NCBI GenBank assembly: GCA_018780035.1
Contig: JADMKE010000021.1
Location: 91,844-155,843, forward strand
Reading direction: 5' to 3'
Source of the DNA: Candidatus Sericytochromatia bacterium
GTDB lineage: Bacteria > Cyanobacteriota > Sericytochromatia > UBA7694
DNA length: 64,000 bases
In this document: in pieces, positions 6,033 through 61,656 of the stretch
How positions within the stretch are numbered: the stretch's first letter is position 1
Layout of the letters: each line of letters begins with the position of its first letter
Notes under the pieces: model-generated
What the model was told of the DNA's origin: nothing
Database searches by the model: none
What the model saw: the letters and a program-made list of their open reading frames with translations, nothing else
Position numbers and translations under genes: made by a program

Positions 6033-7265
6033 ATGTCTGAATTGGTGGGCCATATTTTAAAAGACCTTTTGGATTCGCAAGGCAAAAGCCTTTTGGGGCA
6101 GGGAGACTATTTAAAAGCGATCCTGATGGATGTGTGTCCGGATGAGCCCAAGGCGATTGATTTAATTATGACAGCCTTGGATGAAGCCATTCCGGTGGAT
6201 TTACTGCAATTGAAAAAAACGACAGATGGGTGGCAAACACCGTTTACAGATAAACTGAATCAAAACCAAGGGTTGCCCGATCGCTATTCCAACTGGGTCG
6301 TCGAAACCTGGGCAGCAGCCCTGGGAGTCATCCCCTTGAATTTTCAGCCCCGCAACCTGATTGCCGAATCCGAAGAAGAATACCGCGATGCGATCAGATC
6401 TGTTTTTTTGCGTTGGAACGACTTAAACGAAGCGCAAAAAACCGAAATCCGAGGCCTCCAAAACCGTTTGCGCCTCGACCGGGAAGAGGCTGAACGAATT
6501 TGGAAAGAGGTTCAGGAAGAAATGAGCCGGACAAACCAAATTGCAGTCAAAGTGAGTCCGCCCACCCTTGCCCCCCTGCATAACTCACTGGGAATGAGTT
6601 TCGTGCGGATTGAACCAGGCAGTTTTTTGATGGGTTCTCCGGATTACGAACGCAACCGAGAAAGCGATGAGACCCTCCACTCTGTTACCCTGAGTCAGCC
6701 CTATTGGATGCAGAGTACGCCCGTGACCCAGGCCCAATGGCAAAAGTTGATGGGGAATAACCCAGCAGATTTTAAAGGTCCCCAATTGCCCATTGAAAAT
6801 ATCTCTTGGTTGGACATCAACCAGCGTTTTTTACCTGCCCTGAATGCTCTGGGAGAGGGAAAATATCGCCTGCCCAGCGAAGCGGAATGGGAATATGCCG
6901 CTCGTGCAGGCAGCATGAAAAGTTTTTATGAGCGCCACGATGCCAGCACCCTGGATGCTTATGCTTGGTACAACAATAATTCCAATTTTAAAACCCATCC
7001 GGTGGGGCAAAAACAGCCCAATGCCTGGGGCCTCTACGATATGTATGGCAATGTCTGGGAATGGTGCAAAGATCTTTATGGGGCTTATCTATTGAACCAA
7101 ACCCAAGATCCACAAGGCCCCGCTCGGGGTCAAGGTCGGGTGATGCGTGGAGGCAGCTGGTTTTGCAGTACCAACGCCTGTCGCCAAGCTGCGCGGGGCT
7201 ATCTGACCCCAGAGACCCGTGTGCGGCTCACCGGCTTTCGCTTGGTAAGAGAACCCGATGTCTGA
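6033..7265 (+). CDS. SUMF1/formylglycine-generating-enzyme-family protein with both copper-site cysteines and helical N-domain
   Basis: A 410-residue protein in two parts. Residues 1-150 are mainly helical and resemble the small helical N-terminal modules found fused to SUMF1, WD40 or NTPase domains in bacteria (adaptor-like; my inference). Residues about 180-408 are a SUMF1 domain: NSLGMSFVRIEPGSFLMGS, PVTQAQWQKLMG, YRLPSEAEWEYAARAG, DMYGNVWEWCKD, GGSWFC and TGFRLVRE. C378 and C383 (SWFCSTNAC) match the spacing of the two copper-ligand cysteines of aerobic FGE, which most SUMF1-fold relatives lack. No sulfatase is seen nearby. It overlaps the next gene by 8 bases and follows amrS closely. 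The fold is sure; enzymatic FGE activity is possible but unproven. Confidence 0.85.
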   Translation: MSELVGHILKDLLDSQGKSLLGQGDYLKAILMDVCPDEPKAIDLIMTALDEAIPVDLLQLKKTTDGWQTPFTDKLNQNQGLPDRYSNWVVETWAAALGVIPLNFQPRNLIAESEEEYRDAIRSVFLRWNDLNEAQKTEIRGLQNRLRLDREEAERIWKEVQEEMSRTNQIAVKVSPPTLAPLHNSLGMSFVRIEPGSFLMGSPDYERNRESDETLHSVTLSQPYWMQSTPVTQAQWQKLMGNNPADFKGPQLPIENISWLDINQRFLPALNALGEGKYRLPSEAEWEYAARAGSMKSFYERHDASTLDAYAWYNNNSNFKTHPVGQKQPNAWGLYDMYGNVWEWCKDLYGAYLLNQTQDPQGPARGQGRVMRGGSWFCSTNACRQAARGYLTPETRVRLTGFRLVREPDV

Positions 7266-53047: not shown

Positions 53048-54670
53048 TTAAATCGCAATTGGGGGTAATTTTGAACTGCCGGCTAAAAACTGGGGGCCGA
53101 GGACGCGATTGAGGATATAGTCCTCGCGCAACTCCGTTTCCAAAGCCTGCTCAAAGCCCGGTACCAATGCGGCCTGTTGGACAAAGCGCGCAGCGGCCTG
53201 GCGGTAGACCTCCTGCTGTTGGGGTTCGCTGGCTCGGCGGCTGAGAACGGCACAGGCCACTCCCCGCGCCAATTGCAAAAGCCAGAATCCTTCATTGAGC
53301 TGCTGACCGGGGCTGAGTTTGTTGATCTCACACATACAGGCATTGAGATCTGTCTGGGTCCAACACAGGCTGATCAGGTAAAAACAGCGCAGATGGTTGG
53401 CGCGCTGCTCGCTCAAACCCGCGTGAAAAAGGTTCACGGTACTCAAAACCTCAGTATACGCAGCCTGGGCCTCTTGCATCAGGGTCTGAAAATGGCTACT
53501 GAATGCCGCAGAGCGCTCCTGGTGCCAGAGCAAAAGTGAGGCGGTGTCATAACAGAGATTGGCCAATTCTTTTTTATAATAGAAACGCTCTTGCTCCGTG
53601 GGCAATTGGGGCAAATGGCTCGCGAGCATGTCCCGTGCCTGCAAGGCCAGACTCAGGCCTTTGTGGACAGTGGCTCCGCGATAGAGCTTGAGCATTTGGC
53701 GGGCCAAGAGGCCCATAAAAATCGCCACAGGACACGCCACCTCGGCCGCATTGCCCAGGCCCTTGAGCTGGAGAATATTCTGAAACTCAACGGCACTGAC
53801 GGGGCCTTCTTGGCCCTGCAAAAGATAACGCACCCCCCAACAGGTGGCCATCAGCCGCAACAAAGTACGGCGCAAAGCAGGCACACTGCGACAGAGACGG
53901 TTGTGGTAAAGCAGGCGATCAGAGATTTCCCAAGCATAGCTGACAAAGTCTTCGACACGAGGATAGGCATCGAGTTCGAGGGCACCCTCCTGTAAGAGGG
54001 TGCGTTCGACATAGGCGCGCAGGAGCCGAATGCCTTCGTTCATGGTATTGACAAGTGCAGTCAGGGTATCCAGTGATTGCACGCGGGTCAAAGGAATTTC
54101 GTAATCGCCGCCACGGGTGCGGTAAGTGCGGGCCTGTTGCAAAGACTCCAACCCCAGCAATTCTTTGACCAGGGCCTTGTCTTCGGCTTGCACACGCACC
54201 ACAGGGGCCCCTTTGTCATATTCATAGAGTCGGGGCTCTAAGGTCGATAAAAGGCCGTCGAGCGTGTCGAGCTGGCGGCGCAATTGGGCCTCTTGTTTTT
54301 CCAGAGACATGCGGGTATTATCATCCCATTGCAGAGAAAGCCGATTGCGCAGCATTTCTGAGGTTTCTAAACCGGACCCATAGCCCAAAAGCGCCTCAAG
54401 TTCATCATGCACTTCTTGGCGCTGGGGTTCTGTCCAAGCAGGAGTGAGGATTTCAATTAAAGCCGGCAAAACGTCTTGTTTGGGACGCACAAGATTGCCC
54501 GTGCCACTCAGCCACATTGAGAAGGTCGTCTTTTTGAGGGGAAAGCCATGCAGTTCAAGTCCGGCCAAAATCTCCCGCTGCTGCAGACCACTGTTCTCCC
54601 AAAGGCGGCGCAAAAGCGCTTTGGCCCTTTGAATGTTTTGCTGCTCCCAGGGGGTCAGCGCCGACTTCAT
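53048..54670 (-). CDS. HTH-domain protein with long helical C-terminal region, unknown
   Basis: 540 residues. The first 90 contain a Cro/XRE-like helix-turn-helix: NIQRAKALLRRLWENSGLQQ, then LAGLELHGFPLKKTTFSMWLSG and LPALIEILTP. The rest is alpha-helical with many Leu, Gln, Arg, Ala, probably a TPR-like or coiled sensor part; Cys are frequent near 420-460. No signal peptide. Its start overlaps the stop of the lipoprotein gene ahead as ATGA, so both are coupled. It may be a transcription regulator of the pilin cluster; this is inference. Confidence 0.7.
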   Translation of the reverse strand: MKSALTPWEQQNIQRAKALLRRLWENSGLQQREILAGLELHGFPLKKTTFSMWLSGTGNLVRPKQDVLPALIEILTPAWTEPQRQEVHDELEALLGYGSGLETSEMLRNRLSLQWDDNTRMSLEKQEAQLRRQLDTLDGLLSTLEPRLYEYDKGAPVVRVQAEDKALVKELLGLESLQQARTYRTRGGDYEIPLTRVQSLDTLTALVNTMNEGIRLLRAYVERTLLQEGALELDAYPRVEDFVSYAWEISDRLLYHNRLCRSVPALRRTLLRLMATCWGVRYLLQGQEGPVSAVEFQNILQLKGLGNAAEVACPVAIFMGLLARQMLKLYRGATVHKGLSLALQARDMLASHLPQLPTEQERFYYKKELANLCYDTASLLLWHQERSAAFSSHFQTLMQEAQAAYTEVLSTVNLFHAGLSEQRANHLRCFYLISLCWTQTDLNACMCEINKLSPGQQLNEGFWLLQLARGVACAVLSRRASEPQQQEVYRQAAARFVQQAALVPGFEQALETELREDYILNRVLGPQFLAGSSKLPPIAI

Positions 54671-55857
54671 GGTTGGGGATGAGGCAGAGGGCGGCTCTGC
54701 CCTTGTTCCTGAGCTTGTCGAAAGGAGGGATCTTGATAAACCACCGACTTGGCTTGCACAGCCCGACCTTCTACCTGGAACTGGGCTTCTATGCGATAAA
54801 CGGGGCGGGCCCGGGGAGGCATAGGGGGCTGTGGGACAGGGTTGCCATAGGCCCTCACAGCCCGGTTCGCTGGGCCTGCTTGTGGCAAAGGAAGAGGTGG
54901 GACAGGAACCGCAGCTTGGCCGATCCGGGTCTGGACATAGCCCGTTTCGTAATTGTAGGCGTATTTATTTTGGTATTTGTTTTCAACCTTTTCGACTTTG
55001 CCAGCCCAGGCCGCCACACTTGGCATATAGCGGGGCTCATCGCCGGGAAAATCTCCGGCATAGGCAAAACCCGGAACGGGATAGGCCTGTTGTGCCTGTC
55101 GCATTTGCGGATAATCTCCGGCAAAGGGATCCCGATAAACACTGTGCTGATCAGCTTCCCAGGCTTCTGCTCGCTCTTCTTCAAAGTGAGCCCCATCGGG
55201 TACAAAAGCCTCAGAGGCAGCAACGGTATTTGGCGAAACAGGAACATCTGTTTGAGCCACCGTCTGAGGCTCGGTTTGGGTTTCTGGCAAAATTTCGCCT
55301 TTGTAGGTCTGAATAGCAAAATCGGCATCAGCGGTCATGAGATAGGCTTTGCTGGCACTGGCCAAGGCCAATTCCTGAGAGGGGTCGGCAAAATAAAAAC
55401 GCTGGTTTTCAAATTCACCTTTAAAGACGGCTGTTTTCTGCTCGGGCAACATCACCACCAAGGTGGCCAAAACCCGCTCGTTTAAAGCCTGAACCAATTC
55501 AGGGCTGGTAAAATAATTGCCTTCAGAGCCCGCCAAAAGTTGGATCGAAAAATCTTTGTTCTGTTGGTAACTTTCGATCTTGCCCGCCTTTAAGTCGGCT
55601 TCAAATTGCTGGCGTACAGGCTCTATCACAGGTGCATCATTGGCATCGACAGCGGCAATCTGAAAGCCCGACTGAAGCTGAAAGAGGTAATTTTGAACCG
55701 TTTTTTGGAGATTGTTGGGGAGACTTTGCAATGAAGGGCTTAAGGCAGAGAGGGGGCCACGGGCCAGATTCAGACCCATAGGCTGGCAAGCCAATAGGCT
55801 GCAGCACCCCAGGATCAATGAAAAAGCCCCCATCGGCAAGCGAAGCACCCGTTTCAT
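54667..55857 (-). CDS. Lipoprotein, Pro-rich, unknown
   Basis: 396 residues. Lipobox LLAC (C24). Residues 30-190 seem a folded domain (QNYLFQLQSGFQIAAVDAND, and VVMLPEQKTAVFKGEFENQRF). The second half is Pro, Tyr, Gln and Ala-rich. TTGGAGGC precedes ATG 55857. It sits between the giant pilin-like gene (88 bases upstream) and the HTH gene (4-base overlap). An envelope role with the pili is possible only by context. Confidence 0.72.
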   Translation of the reverse strand: MKRVLRLPMGAFSLILGCCSLLACQPMGLNLARGPLSALSPSLQSLPNNLQKTVQNYLFQLQSGFQIAAVDANDAPVIEPVRQQFEADLKAGKIESYQQNKDFSIQLLAGSEGNYFTSPELVQALNERVLATLVVMLPEQKTAVFKGEFENQRFYFADPSQELALASASKAYLMTADADFAIQTYKGEILPETQTEPQTVAQTDVPVSPNTVAASEAFVPDGAHFEEERAEAWEADQHSVYRDPFAGDYPQMRQAQQAYPVPGFAYAGDFPGDEPRYMPSVAAWAGKVEKVENKYQNKYAYNYETGYVQTRIGQAAVPVPPLPLPQAGPANRAVRAYGNPVPQPPMPPRARPVYRIEAQFQVEGRAVQAKSVVYQDPSFRQAQEQGQSRPLPHPQP

Positions 55858-55945
55858 GTAAAGCCTCCAACAGCATGTTTTTTTTATTAGAACATACCCG
55901 CTTTTAAAAAAGCAGCCTCCTTTTGAACTCAATTCAGAATAAGGC

Positions 55946-58900
55946 TCAACGGGCACCCATTTTCCAAGAGCCTTGGACCAACTGTGGATAATTATTATAG
56001 ACAGCCTGATTCCTGTAATCACCAGCTGTTGTGGGATATGCTGGAGCCCCCATCAGCGGATTCATATACAAAGAGCGGTCATAATAATAATTTCTTTTTT
56101 GTTTAAAATAAAGGGTAAAAGAGGGCACCTCAAAACTGTAAATGGTGCCATAAAATTTGAAGAGATCGGTGTAAGAAAAGATATTGCCATCGATCAGATC
56201 TTGGTCAGTCATCTCGCCCCCTGTGCCATTTTTGGAATGTACATAGACCCGGTTGCCTGCCACCATTTGGGCATTGAGCAGCAAACGGTCGTCTCCACTG
56301 TTGGGGGTGGTATCGGGAGCAGGATCGGGGCGCATCCCGGTTACGGAGAGTTTAACATCGTGGGTGGCAAAAAGCCCCAAACCACAAATTTTGCCCACTG
56401 GCGAGCCCGTGCTATCGCGGGCCACGGTGCCATCGGGATTGGTCACCCACATGGTTTGGGCATCGGTGATGCTGGTGGTGGTCAAATGGTTGTGGCTGTA
56501 GCCCGCAATCGGCTGGGGATCCAATTGGCGCAATTCCATTTTGGCAGCGCCACTGTTGTACTGGGAATAAAAGGCGTTTTTATAGACCACATCCCCGACC
56601 ACCACAATGTCCCCTTTGGAATATTTATAATCCAAGCCAGGGCCGGGCGGCGATGTGGTAAACGAAACGATCGTCACTTGGCCATCGACAATTGTGGAGC
56701 GGCCAGGTGGATTGCCATTGAGCAGGGGCAGGCAATCGGCATACAAAGCTGTACAATTGCTCGAGAGGCCATTGGGTTCGCGATTGCCAATCAAGACCAC
56801 CGCATCCTGAACCAGAATCACTTCATTTTCAGGGATTTTGACATAGCGGTACATGCGGTAATCCCCTGTGGTTTGCGCATCAGAAACCTTCATATAGTCG
56901 GCAGAGGCAGGATTGTCGTTGACCCAAATCCAGGCATAATAGCGATCGGCAGCCGCAGCGGCTGAGGGCTGCGAAAAGGGGATTTCAACCCCAATCTGGC
57001 TGCCCGCTGAATATTTGACTTTGCTACCAAAATAGACCGAGCGAAAATCGACAATTTTATCGTCGTTGTCGATCGCGGGCAGATTGTAAACCAAATGATT
57101 ATCTACTGCAGAGCCCACCAGATAGCCATAGAGAAAATTAGAGGTGGTGGGCAAAGTGCTGGGATTGAGGGAATCATCCGCATTGCGGGGCATCGAAATG
57201 CCCAAAGTCAATTGCAGGTATTTGTTTAATTGTTCCAATTGATTTTTATAATTGGCAATCGCTGAAGTGGGTTTTAAGAGGGGTGAATTGTGGGCTGCCG
57301 TATTCACAGGTGCATAAAGGGCGTTGGCAAAAGAGAGATAATTGGGATTGGGTGTGCCAATCAGATCGTTGGTAATATAATGCCAATGGCGCCAGGTAGC
57401 GGCATCATAGCCGGGATCCGCCCCCACAGCTGTAGAGTTGGCATTGAGATCGGCCCCGGCAATATTGGTATGGGCATGCCCCTGCTGATAAAGTGGGTAA
57501 CTGCTCCCCATGGCGTGCTCTTGCCAATAGCTGTATTTCGGCGCTGCGCCGGAATACGACATGCGATCGTAGACCCGAATCGGAGAGTGGTTGATATAAA
57601 TCACACGGTAATTGGTGCCACTGCTGGGTTCACTGGTGCCAGGCAGCCAACCGCCGCTGCCATCGGGAACCGCCCAGACGATAAAAGAATCAGATTTGAG
57701 TTTAAAATGCACCCCACGGGTATAGGTCGTGCCCCCCTGACGCACAGCCGTGATGCCATTGGGGGTATACGCTGGCACCGCATCGAGGCCATTGAGCGCG
57801 CCTTTGACCGCATTGACAGAGGTCGGGCTGCCATCGGTATAGTCCACGGTATAGGTGCTGCCTGCAGCAGGCTCAATCCCGCCCAGAGACCAGTCAATCT
57901 GCCAATAAGAGCCCCTTGGAAAATAGACAAAATCTTGGCCGGGTTGGTAAACCGTGACAGTATTAAAGGGGTTCCACTGTGCGCCTTTTTCAATTTGCAA
58001 GACCCCTGGATAAGCACATTTGGCTTTGAGCAGGTCCGAACCATTGGCTGTGGCGCCGCGCACCTCGCTCTGCAAAACCGGGGCATAGACCGAGCGAAAG
58101 GTTATATTAAATTGCTGATTGGTGTGAACCGGGCCATAAAAGGCCCCCGTCTCTTGAAAAGGGCTAGCACCACAGTCCAACGGCGGATCGTAGACGGAGG
58201 GGTCGGGGTCACGGCCCGGATAAGGGGCAAAGGGCGCTGGGGGATGGTATTCCTCGTTCCAGGTGGTACTCTGATCGAGAATCAGGGATTTGTCTGATTC
58301 AAGCAGATAACCGGCAGGCGCATCGAGCAAATTACCTGTATTGAGTTGCAACACGCCATACACCTCTTGGCTGCGGCCTTTGGGCAGCAAATTGCCCTGA
58401 GCATCGGTCAGCCAGGCCTTGATCTTGAGGCCCATAAAACGCCCAGGACAGCTATTGGTATCCAAATCACAGAGCTGATTGCCGTATTGATCAAAGCCCT
58501 TTTTTTCGCTGCTCAGCAGGGTGCCGGGCACAAAGCCCACAGCCGAGCCCGTTATGGTCTTATTGCCAAAGATCGTGCGTTTTTCGCCCGTTTCAATCGC
58601 CGCTTCGTAAATGCCAATAATCCGCGAATTGGGATCAAGGGGATTTTCACGGACCTTGCGAAAATTGGCAAAACTATTGGTACTGGGCAGGCGCTGACAG
58701 CGGGTATAAAAGGGATCGGTGGTCGCACAGTCTTTGACAATCCCGTTGATTTGGGTCCAATCGCCATCAAGGGCGGCCAACTCGGCCCGCAATTGCTGAA
58801 AGCCGATCTCAGCAATATAACCGGCGGTGATCGTGGCTTGCTCATAACCTGTGCGTTGCACCTGAAAGCGTACAACGGCCAAAAATGTCATGCCCATCAT

Positions 58901-58975
58901 CAGCAAAATGCCGATCACCATCAAAACGGGCGGAATCGAAATCCCGCGTTCACGGCTGCGTTGGCTGTCCATCAA
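55946..58975 (-). CDS. Giant PilX/GspK-like pilin-associated protein
   Basis: 1009 residues. A basic N-terminus ending in RERG, then ISIPPVLMVIGILLMMGMTF, is prepilin-like. The position normally held by E5 is Pro, as in the tip pseudopilin GspK-type minor pilins that lack E5. The remaining 950 residues are Tyr, Asn, Ser, Gly-rich and beta-like, much larger than ordinary minor pilins, with no adhesin domain I recognise. Its start overlaps the PilW-like gene by 4 bases (ATGA). It likely sits at a pilus tip or on the cell surface. Confidence 0.7.
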   Translation of the reverse strand: MMDSQRSRERGISIPPVLMVIGILLMMGMTFLAVVRFQVQRTGYEQATITAGYIAEIGFQQLRAELAALDGDWTQINGIVKDCATTDPFYTRCQRLPSTNSFANFRKVRENPLDPNSRIIGIYEAAIETGEKRTIFGNKTITGSAVGFVPGTLLSSEKKGFDQYGNQLCDLDTNSCPGRFMGLKIKAWLTDAQGNLLPKGRSQEVYGVLQLNTGNLLDAPAGYLLESDKSLILDQSTTWNEEYHPPAPFAPYPGRDPDPSVYDPPLDCGASPFQETGAFYGPVHTNQQFNITFRSVYAPVLQSEVRGATANGSDLLKAKCAYPGVLQIEKGAQWNPFNTVTVYQPGQDFVYFPRGSYWQIDWSLGGIEPAAGSTYTVDYTDGSPTSVNAVKGALNGLDAVPAYTPNGITAVRQGGTTYTRGVHFKLKSDSFIVWAVPDGSGGWLPGTSEPSSGTNYRVIYINHSPIRVYDRMSYSGAAPKYSYWQEHAMGSSYPLYQQGHAHTNIAGADLNANSTAVGADPGYDAATWRHWHYITNDLIGTPNPNYLSFANALYAPVNTAAHNSPLLKPTSAIANYKNQLEQLNKYLQLTLGISMPRNADDSLNPSTLPTTSNFLYGYLVGSAVDNHLVYNLPAIDNDDKIVDFRSVYFGSKVKYSAGSQIGVEIPFSQPSAAAAADRYYAWIWVNDNPASADYMKVSDAQTTGDYRMYRYVKIPENEVILVQDAVVLIGNREPNGLSSNCTALYADCLPLLNGNPPGRSTIVDGQVTIVSFTTSPPGPGLDYKYSKGDIVVVGDVVYKNAFYSQYNSGAAKMELRQLDPQPIAGYSHNHLTTTSITDAQTMWVTNPDGTVARDSTGSPVGKICGLGLFATHDVKLSVTGMRPDPAPDTTPNSGDDRLLLNAQMVAGNRVYVHSKNGTGGEMTDQDLIDGNIFSYTDLFKFYGTIYSFEVPSFTLYFKQKRNYYYDRSLYMNPLMGAPAYPTTAGDYRNQAVYNNYPQLVQGSWKMGAR

Positions 58976-59853
58976 TTGCGTAACCTCACTTCTGTCGTCA
59001 ACTCAATGCCCTTGCGAAACTGACCGGCGCTCAGGGGCGAGCCCCCCAAAACCAAACGAATCCCAATCACCTGACGGTATTGCAGATTGAGATATTCGAC
59101 CAAGGCCGCGTTGCCCTGGTTGGTCTGAATCGTGATTAAATTTGTATCCAAAGTAGCCCCTTGGCTGTCCATGGCCCGCGAAAATTCAGGATAGGTAAAT
59201 TGTAGCAATTGTACACGCTCTGCCAAAACCGTGCGCAGGGGGTCTGGTGAAGTCAGAAAGCTATTGCTGCCCCCCACCACCGGGCGCTGCACCTCGCGCA
59301 CCAACTTAATATTGTTGGGATCGGTATTGTCGAGACGGTAGGTCACCCGCTCGACAGTGGCAGTATTGCCCGGCCCAGGTGGCTGAATCAGGTAAAAAAC
59401 CAGGGAATTGCTCTCGTTGCTGCTATTGGGATACCATTTGTGGTAAATATCGCTGGGGACAGCCTGAGAGAGAAATTTGCGGGCGGCGGGCACCCCAGGA
59501 CTGATCACCACACCCGCAGTGGGGGGATGGGGCTGCAATTCCACAGCGGTATACGGCAAAGCGGGCAAGGAGGCCCAATTGGGGGAGAGTGCAAACAGGG
59601 AAGGTGCCTCACTGGCAGAGCCCTTGATCTCTTTGGTCATACGTGCCAAGACCAACTGGGCCTGAGACGTCGTACGGGCGTGCTCTTGGCCCAACATCAT
59701 GTTTTTCTGGGTATTCATAAAAAAGACCACCAGCGCGGTCAACATGGTCAAACCAATGGTGAGCCCCACCAGCATTTCAATCACGCTGAAGCCTTTTTCC
59801 TGCGATCTTAAAGGCTTCCGAGCAAAGACAGGGGAATTATTGGAAATTGTCAC
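58972..59853 (-). CDS. PilW-like minor prepilin
   Basis: 293 residues. The type III cleavage motif is clear: EKG|FSVIEMLVGLTIGLTML, with G21 as last leader residue and E5 at residue 26. PilW-type minor pilins prime type IV pilus assembly. The start region overlaps the preceding PilV-like gene by 17 bases; the stop overlaps the PilX-like start. Leader cleavage requires a PilD-type peptidase, which is not in the window. Confidence 0.85.
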   Translation of the reverse strand: MTISNNSPVFARKPLRSQEKGFSVIEMLVGLTIGLTMLTALVVFFMNTQKNMMLGQEHARTTSQAQLVLARMTKEIKGSASEAPSLFALSPNWASLPALPYTAVELQPHPPTAGVVISPGVPAARKFLSQAVPSDIYHKWYPNSSNESNSLVFYLIQPPGPGNTATVERVTYRLDNTDPNNIKLVREVQRPVVGGSNSFLTSPDPLRTVLAERVQLLQFTYPEFSRAMDSQGATLDTNLITIQTNQGNAALVEYLNLQYRQVIGIRLVLGGSPLSAGQFRKGIELTTEVRLRN

Positions 59854-60319
59854 GGACCAAGGTCACCCCCATCGTAATATGCCCTGTGCCGCCACCCGGC
59901 CAGGTGATCTTGACGGTGACCTGAATGCGATCATCGGTTAAATTGCGGGTGCCCCGATCATCAAAGGTATAAATCCGCTGAATCTGCAAGAGTTTGGCAC
60001 CCGTTGCCGGCTGGGTAAAGACCTGGCCATCGGCCTTGACATAGAGCTTCTGGCCGTTGACATCATCGGCAAGAATCGCGGTATTGCTGGTGGGGCTGAC
60101 CAAAGCCGACGCCTGACTAAAGCCCCGATTGCGAATCTGTTCGACAATGCGCTGTGCGGCTTGGACTGCGGCTGTTTTTTCTTTGTTTTGATGGGTCGAG
60201 CGAAAACCCAGCCCCAAGATCGGGCTGACAAGCATAATGCCCAAAGCCAGCAGTACGGCAGCCACCATGACTTCGACCAGGCCGAATCCCCTTTGCCTGC
60301 GTCGAAGCGCTGTCTTCAT
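59837..60319 (-). CDS. PilV-like minor prepilin
   Basis: 160 residues. Leader MKTALRRRQRG, then FGLVEVMVAAVLLALGIML with E5 at residue 16, the textbook prepilin N-terminus. The mature domain is small. It overlaps both the J-domain gene ahead (4 bases) and the PilW-like gene behind (17 bases), so the operon is tightly coupled. Confidence 0.87.
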   Translation of the reverse strand: MKTALRRRQRGFGLVEVMVAAVLLALGIMLVSPILGLGFRSTHQNKEKTAAVQAAQRIVEQIRNRGFSQASALVSPTSNTAILADDVNGQKLYVKADGQVFTQPATGAKLLQIQRIYTFDDRGTRNLTDDRIQVTVKITWPGGGTGHITMGVTLVRDNFQ

Positions 60320-61656
60320 CTGCCCGCTCCATAGGGGGAATAGGGCTGACCTTTGCCTTGGGTCGCAGATTGGGTTGCAGGCTGGGTGCCGGGTTGATTC
60401 GCAGGCTGGGTACCCGGTTGGGATCCGGGTTGAGTTCCAGATTGGGTTTGAGCCGTGCCCACAGGCGCGCTAACAGCCCCCGTGGTGCTCGATCCTGAAT
60501 TTTGAGCACCTTTGGCATTGGCTGCCGTGGCGTATTCAGGAAAAAGATGGGCCGGAAAGGCTGCAGAATTTAAATCGACAGCTGAACCATCGGGCATTTT
60601 GAGCGGCACCGTCGCCGGGGCTGGAATGAGTTCATTGTCTCGGGTCACCATCACAGCCTGATTGGTCTCAGTGTCCTGTTTCCAGCCCTTGAGTTCGCTC
60701 GGTTTATAGGTCAAGATGCTGCCATCTTCATAGGTCACCACCACGACCCCCTGATCGGGATAATAGACCTTGCTCTTGGCTTTTTGTTTGCGGTAATCGT
60801 AGGTCTGCCCCTCGGGTTTAAAATCACTGCCCAGATCGGGAATTTGCACCGCCTGGGTCGATTTTGCGTCTTGTTTTTGCTGCAAATCTTGCACCATGTC
60901 TTGGGGCAATTGGCTGTTGATATCTTTTTCGTCGTGGATTTTTTTGCCGGCTTTGCGGGCCGCCTCTTTCATCGGGTCGAATATTTCTTGGGTGGCGTGG
61001 TTAAGCTTGCCAAAGACTCCCCCAATCAATTGCTGGGGCAAACCCGAAGCCAAAAGCACACTCAGGCCCACAAACGCAGCGGCGAGGGCGCCCACTTGAC
61101 GGTTGAGTGGATTGCCACCCCCCGGATGTTTTTTATCCGGGAGTTTAAACAGCAAATGGGCCACGGTCTCTTTGGCAAACATATACTGGGGGTCGAGGCG
61201 CAGGGCGGTTTCGAGTTCGGACTCGGCAAAGCTCATCCAATTTTTTTCGGCATAGGCAATGGCCAAATGCACCCGATACAGGGGCCGGTGGGGATAGAGC
61301 ATGGAAATTTCTTTAAAGTAGCGCAGCGCCATTTCAATTTGGTGCTGGCGAAAGGCTTTGACAGCCTCTTTAAACAGGCCATCGACCTGGTTGCTAATCG
61401 GCAGATTCTTGCGGCCGAGTTGACGCAGGTCATAATGGCTGCGCTGAATCGGATCGTTGAGCACTTCGTAAGCCTGGGTCAGACCCAGCATTTTTTCAGC
61501 CGAACGCACGCGCTCTTTTTGGTCGGGGTGATTGAGGTTTAAATCTGAAGATTGATGCTCAAAAGCCTCAACCACCTGAATGCTTGAAGCTTCGGGTGTG
61601 AGACCCATTAATTCGTAATAATCGTTTTCGGCATAATAGCTCTGCTCAAATCGCAT
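60316..61656 (-). CDS. Membrane J-domain protein with TPR-like region
   Basis: 446 residues. Residues 11-80 are a J domain (DYYELMGLTPEAS, HPD at 43-45, NDPIQRSHYDLRQLG). Residues 95-170 look like TPR helices. A membrane helix is at about 188-207. The outside part ends in a Gln/Pro/Gly/Thr-rich repeat (PGTQPANQPGTQP), preceded by VVVVTYEDGSILTYKPSELKGW. The HPD implies stimulation of an Hsp70. It is the first gene of the prepilin operon, GGGAGGC precedes the ATG, and TATAAT lies upstream. A chaperone role in pilin export or assembly is inferred. Confidence 0.82.
   Translation of the reverse strand: MRFEQSYYAENDYYELMGLTPEASSIQVVEAFEHQSSDLNLNHPDQKERVRSAEKMLGLTQAYEVLNDPIQRSHYDLRQLGRKNLPISNQVDGLFKEAVKAFRQHQIEMALRYFKEISMLYPHRPLYRVHLAIAYAEKNWMSFAESELETALRLDPQYMFAKETVAHLLFKLPDKKHPGGGNPLNRQVGALAAAFVGLSVLLASGLPQQLIGGVFGKLNHATQEIFDPMKEAARKAGKKIHDEKDINSQLPQDMVQDLQQKQDAKSTQAVQIPDLGSDFKPEGQTYDYRKQKAKSKVYYPDQGVVVVTYEDGSILTYKPSELKGWKQDTETNQAVMVTRDNELIPAPATVPLKMPDGSAVDLNSAAFPAHLFPEYATAANAKGAQNSGSSTTGAVSAPVGTAQTQSGTQPGSQPGTQPANQPGTQPATQSATQGKGQPYSPYGAGR

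Follow-up and report, generated by a model that had tools for sequence, protein, structure and literature searches.

A J-like, TPR-containing membrane protein encoded ahead of minor prepilins in Sericytochromatia

A J domain found beside pilus genes readily suggests that a chaperone is at work, and the DnaK1/DnaJ3 pair of cyanobacteria does act at the pilus motor: DnaK1, DnaJ3 and GrpE interact with it and are needed for polysaccharide production (PMC9239167, PMC12288463). This system is the nearest precedent for the locus described here, which lies on 64,000 nucleotides (the window) of contig JADMKE010000021.1 from Candidatus Sericytochromatia bacterium. There, a gene for a membrane protein with a J-like domain and tetratricopeptide repeat (TPR) helices heads an operon of minor prepilins; J-like denotes a J fold without a functional His-Pro-Asp (HPD) motif (PMC3196505). 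A full-text literature search combining J domains, type IV pili and minor pilins matched only work on PilZ and DnaK in M. xanthus.

DnaJ3 resembles the protein of the window in joining a J domain to TPRs (according to a review, PMC12288463), in its link to type IV pili and in belonging to the same phylum. In contrast, DnaJ3 works with a dedicated DnaK, DnaK1, as two-hybrid tests and genetics indicate, whereas the present protein has neither an in-register HPD nor a basic helix II any longer, and its genome has one DnaK. The gene described here also heads a minor-pilin operon, and its product has a transmembrane helix and a predicted periplasmic β-domain. A cyanobacterial J-TPR protein (L120) has its HPD in register and falls outside the J-like clade presented below; that it is DnaJ3 is only a possibility. 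Among the matches listed from 274 genomes of the phylum outside the class, the best cover essentially the J domain only.

In ARC6/Ftn2 and CJD1 too, an N-terminal J-like domain lies to one side of a membrane, and the partners are proteins other than Hsp70. CJD1 has no HPD, does not bind Hsp70 in yeast and does not rescue an E. coli dnaJ cbpA strain; it binds ARC6 in two-hybrid tests (PMC3196505). The partner genes differ from those found here, and the sequence relation is limited to the J fold. We rejected membership of the ARC6/Ftn2 family, since our protein contains no IMS domain (PF13355); the sole PF13355 protein of its genome is encoded on contig C40, in a 385-residue frame with an ARC6-like IMS domain at 6448-6762, and the domain also occurs in two of the relatives introduced below (G004 and G005). 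Tim16/Pam16 is another J-like domain with a lost HPD at a membrane machine; it is eukaryotic, however, and has no TPR. It acts by pairing with Tim14 (also cited in PMC3196505).

A four-gene unit conserved across genera

We compared the genome of the window (G000) with seven relatives (G001-G007). On the minus strand, the genes for the J-like/TPR membrane protein, a PilV-like prepilin, a PilW-like prepilin and a large prepilin in the PilX position follow one another in tight coupling. The first two overlap by 4 bases (ATGA), the PilV and PilW genes by 17, with PilW starting at GTG 59853; an identical 17-base overlap is found in G001. The PilW and PilX genes overlap by 1 base (TGATG), with the PilX start at ATG 58972, which is more likely than the alternative TTG 58975. 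An earlier note on this DNA had described four genes overlapping by 4-17 bases, with a 1009-residue E5-less protein similar to PilX/GspK among them, followed by a lipoprotein gene and a helix-turn-helix gene. All six genes are where it placed them and E5 is indeed missing, but the last prepilin overlap is likely a single base, the large protein likely has 1008 residues, and the lipoprotein gene that follows stands apart.

The order J, PilV, PilW, PilX recurs in 5/5 other genomes that have a full-length J gene. The genomes with this operon span five genera and two orders of Sericytochromatia; contig ends cut 2 of the 6 loci. The four genes are intact in G001 and G002 and present in G004 up to the limit of the contig, with the J gene immediately 5' of PilV in all three. 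In G003, the J gene is truncated by a contig end, in a position consistent with the operon order. In G007, it runs to the end of one contig (C361) and PilV opens another (C509): the two ends overlap over 54 bp at 89% identity (score 83; shuffled sequences reach 28 at most), and on C509 the end of J is followed by a stop and then by PilV. With thousands of genes per genome, there is a negligible probability that J and PilV would lie side by side by chance in several of them. Because the neighbours on both sides vary between genera, we regard the four genes as the unit. The J gene thus stays with the pilin cluster across genera and orders, as the earlier note's term "dedicated" implied and as its proposed comparison of gene order in other genomes now bears out.

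Relatives of PilX occur in eight genomes, including that of the window: five of family f1, to which the window's genome belongs, two of family f2 from the same order, and G007 from another order. Full-length relatives of the J-like protein occur in the five f1 genomes and G007, and proteins with the whole arrangement of J-like domain, TPR, transmembrane helix and β-domain are confined to genomes that have the operon's PilW/PilX. Scanning genome contigs with the PilX alignment matched four records, all Sericytochromatia (Candidatus Sericytochromatia T60_A2020_004, KatS3mg068 and LF-bin-346; Cyanobacteria bacterium UBA7694). The same alignment matched no viral contig, and a scan of genome contigs with the single J sequence gave no match.

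Short J-like/TPR paralogues without a transmembrane helix occur elsewhere (L061, 14348-16222; L065, 1002-3068; L062, 9756-10457). Two short paralogues follow a similar-looking gene of ~475 residues, which suggests a second, unlinked J-like pair. We considered a fragment on C235 of G003 as the missing N-terminus of its J protein but discarded this reading, as the fragment appears to be a paralogue in its own right, behind a ~475-residue gene like the paralogue on C407 of G004.

The J-like domain and its protein

The N-terminal domain matches Pfam DnaJ with E=4.7e-9. Our alignment combined the eight family members, E. coli DnaJ and a further 26 J domains taken from this genome and its relatives. 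HPD occupies positions 33-35 in 26/26 of the other J domains and in 0/8 members of the J-like family. In the protein of the window, the letters H-P-D come three residues later than the canonical position; at the motif site, G001 has E-P-N (within TEPN), G002 HPN, G004 HPE and G007 nothing similar. Helix II, by which J domains dock on DnaK, has a net charge of -3 in the window, against +4 in E. coli DnaJ (-3 to +1 across the J-like family, 0 to +5 in the other J domains), with the replacements R22V, K23E, K26E, R27H and K31D relative to the E. coli protein. Stimulation of the ATPase depends critically on the D35-R167 contact (PMC13012618). In a tree built on few columns, the eight domains form one clade on a long stem (support 100/97), the other forks being poorly resolved. 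The three-helix J fold is present, then, while a conserved HPD at the end of helix II and a basic helix II are absent. The protein fits the J-like definition; in the window protein itself, where the letters are retained out of register, the functional loss is probable.

An AlphaFold2 model shows the three-helix J fold followed by TPR helices, the transmembrane helix and the β-domain. The J helices have a predicted local distance difference test score (pLDDT) of ~73-86, and Foldseek aligns the modelled fold with the J domain of Ydj1 (TMt 0.72, root-mean-square deviation 2.5). HPD lies beside helix III in this model, not helix II. This and our other structure models rest on shallow alignments of the window's proteins and related loci. 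The single transmembrane helix is absent from the short paralogues that are not linked to pilins. Because it is the only one and its basic residues lie on the N-terminal side, the J-like and TPR parts are predicted to be cytosolic, and the C-terminus with its β-domain periplasmic, on the side of the pilin heads. The C-terminal tail (60316-60360) is rich in Pro, Gln and Thr and ends in Y-x-P-Y, conserved in f1 members.

These features bear on the earlier note's proposal of Hsp70-assisted assembly, in which a functional J protein would bring DnaK to the inner membrane for the export or assembly of the large PilX. The J fold, the literal HPD letters and the precedent of TPR-containing DnaJ3 (PMC12288463), which cooperates at the pilus motor with DnaK1 and GrpE (PMC9239167), speak for it. 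The out-of-register HPD, which becomes TEP, HPN or HPE or is absent in orthologues, those of the same genus included, and the replaced basic residues of helix II speak against. So does the genomic context: the only DnaK is encoded on C8, beside its own DnaJ and not on the contig of the operon. Three further minor-pilin triads, on C15, C22 and C56, include pilins of 696, 1454 and 708 residues with no J gene nearby, and a large pilin per se therefore needs no J protein here. Moreover, DnaK does not occur in the periplasm, the compartment in which pilin heads fold. Altogether, Hsp70-assisted assembly is not borne out, and we consider it highly improbable.

The genome encodes 12 other J proteins, so that the J-like domain might instead pair with one of the cell's true J proteins and modulate it, Hsp70 being involved only indirectly. 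Such a regulator would have parallels in the J-like/J pair Tim16-Tim14 and in the J-like/J-like pair CJD1-ARC6, seen by two-hybrid (PMC3196505). However, none of the relatives has a partner J gene linked to the operon, and this explanation is also improbable.

Each of the further triads (L109, 8209-12522; L110, 222-7129; L115, 3564-7928) combines a PilX-like gene with its giant pilin, which does have E5. One J protein with an intact HPD (G000, C16:11493) is encoded ~10 kb from two T2SSE-type ATPases (C16:22071-24663), possibly PilB/PilT. A scan for PilY1 (PF05567) gave no match in the class and none in control genomes either, and nothing is concluded from it.

The large prepilin and neighbouring genes

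The PilV-like and PilW-like proteins both have a class III leader with G-1 and E+5; the N_methyl match of PilW is slightly below the cut-off in one scan and above it in another. The third prepilin of the triad has P at +5, and E5 is absent in every relative whose N-terminus is available. It shares with the E5-less tip pilins PilX/GspK its place in the triad, a class III-like leader and the missing E5. It differs in its length and in matching no PilX or GspK family in Pfam or NCBIfam.

In the alignment of its relatives, a conserved core flanks a variable DUF4815/phrog_877-like module; DUF4815 matches two stretches, and G007 lacks the entire region. Judged from this alignment, the architecture fits that of a modular pilin (PMC8179133). 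The modular pilins PilB and PilC of S. sanguinis also combine a pilin N-terminus with large extra modules, likely exposed at the tip (PMC8179133). Unlike them, the present protein has no E5, takes the GspK/PilX position in a triad and carries a DUF4815-like module; it is also longer than the extreme of 860 residues given in PMC8179133. The "very large tip pilin" of the earlier note is plausible as a modular pilin, with a putative location at the tip. A profile search of solved structures gave no match, and an AlphaFold2 model of the 1009-residue form, on a 4-row alignment, reached a pLDDT of 31 and was not used. Within residues 474-532 (~57380-57556, minus strand), Y474, Y483, H487, H500-x-H502 and H530-x-H532 are invariant in all aligned relatives, which suggests a conserved metal site.

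Table 1 Features of the minor-pilin locus, in window coordinates.
Feature	Position	Strand	Evidence
J-like/TPR bitopic membrane protein, 446 residues, first gene of operon	60316-61656	-	Pfam DnaJ 36.7 bits (cut-off 27.8); AlphaFold2 model; synteny
J-like domain (residues 12-76), one clade with 7 relatives without in-register HPD	61429-61623	-	Pfam, alignment, tree
Out-of-register HPD tripeptide (residues 43-45)	61522-61530	-	Alignment; relatives EPN, HPN, HPE or none
TPR-like helices (~residues 89-170), well conserved	61147-61392	-	TPR_2, TPR_9, TPR_19 sub-cut-off matches; model partly low-confidence; alignment
Single transmembrane helix (residues 188-206), basic side N-terminal	61039-61095	-	Hydropathy 2.0-2.7 in 6/6 pilin-linked members
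Small all-β domain (~residues 290-346), predicted periplasmic, conserved to G007	60619-60789	-	pLDDT ~80; alignment
PilV-like minor prepilin, E5 present	59837-60319	-	N_methyl 30.8 bits; TIGR02523 PilV 36.8 bits, under cut-off 52.2
PilW-like minor prepilin, E5 present	58972-59853	-	N_methyl 20.6 bits (cut-off 21.2); synteny
Large E5-less minor prepilin in PilX/GspK position, 1008 residues	55946-58972	-	Class III-like leader RG/ISIPP; family alignment
DUF4815/phrog_877-like module (PilX residues 301-380)	57836-58075	-	Pfam DUF4815 E=4.9e-15; phrog_877 E=2.4e-14
Lipoprotein, neighbour within genus only, outside conserved core	54667-55857	-	Lipobox LLAC; in G001, absent here in G002 and G003
Helix-turn-helix protein, ATGA-coupled to lipoprotein, neighbour within genus only	53048-54670	-	74% identity in G001; absent here in G002 and G003

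Downstream, the lipoprotein gene most likely starts at ATG 55857, as its GGAGG Shine-Dalgarno sequence and its lipobox indicate; this start lies ~88 bases past the end of PilX, with no overlap. Its coupling by ATGA to the helix-turn-helix gene, reported in the earlier note, is seen in G000 and G001. We considered both genes as parts of the unit and rejected them, as their conservation does not extend past the genus. The helix-turn-helix protein, together with the bitopic layout of the J-like protein, would suit a regulatory or surface-sensing function, with the J-like and TPR domains, in the cytosol, relaying the state of the minor-pilin complex to motors, to transcription or to the secretion of polysaccharide and taking no part in assembly. 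Domain scans found no signalling domain, however, and the two downstream genes do not travel with the unit, which leaves a sensor unlikely, if still worth considering.

Possible role of the J-like protein

We favour, with a probability of about one half, a dedicated bitopic J-like/TPR scaffold for a minor-pilin complex that acts without Hsp70. The PilV-like, PilW-like and PilX-like triad would form the priming and tip complex of a type IV pilus and display the large modular PilX, and the J-like protein in the inner membrane would be an assembly platform reserved for this triad. Machinery or regulatory partners may be held by the protein's cytosolic J-like and TPR domains, and the minor pilins contacted by its periplasmic β-domain, so that the protein would bridge the two; it would do so without Hsp70, in the manner of HPD-less J-like scaffolds.

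Several points weigh against this scaffold. Contact of the J-like protein with pilins or machinery is hypothetical; the mean pLDDT of its model is 56, and its periplasmic domain has no detected relative. The gene is carried by six genomes only. The f2 genomes G005 and G006 carry PilX (G006 also PilW), and no J-like protein was found in them; they are 87% and 74% complete, respectively, and their contigs are broken there, inside PilW or PilX.

What is new is that a minor-pilin unit has a dedicated protein of the J-like, not the J, kind; its role, be it in assembly, in regulation or in pairing with a true J protein, is our proposal. More tentatively, and with somewhat less than even confidence, this class-specific, Hsp70-independent inner-membrane protein may be the obligatory platform for one triad displaying a giant modular pilin, the J fold being reused as a pilus scaffold. 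If this is true, a J fold that has lost its Hsp70 signature would have been kept in a pilus assembly platform of the sister class of Cyanobacteria, as in other machines with ARC6 and Tim16, and the case would show how an accessory protein can be reserved for one large modular pilin.
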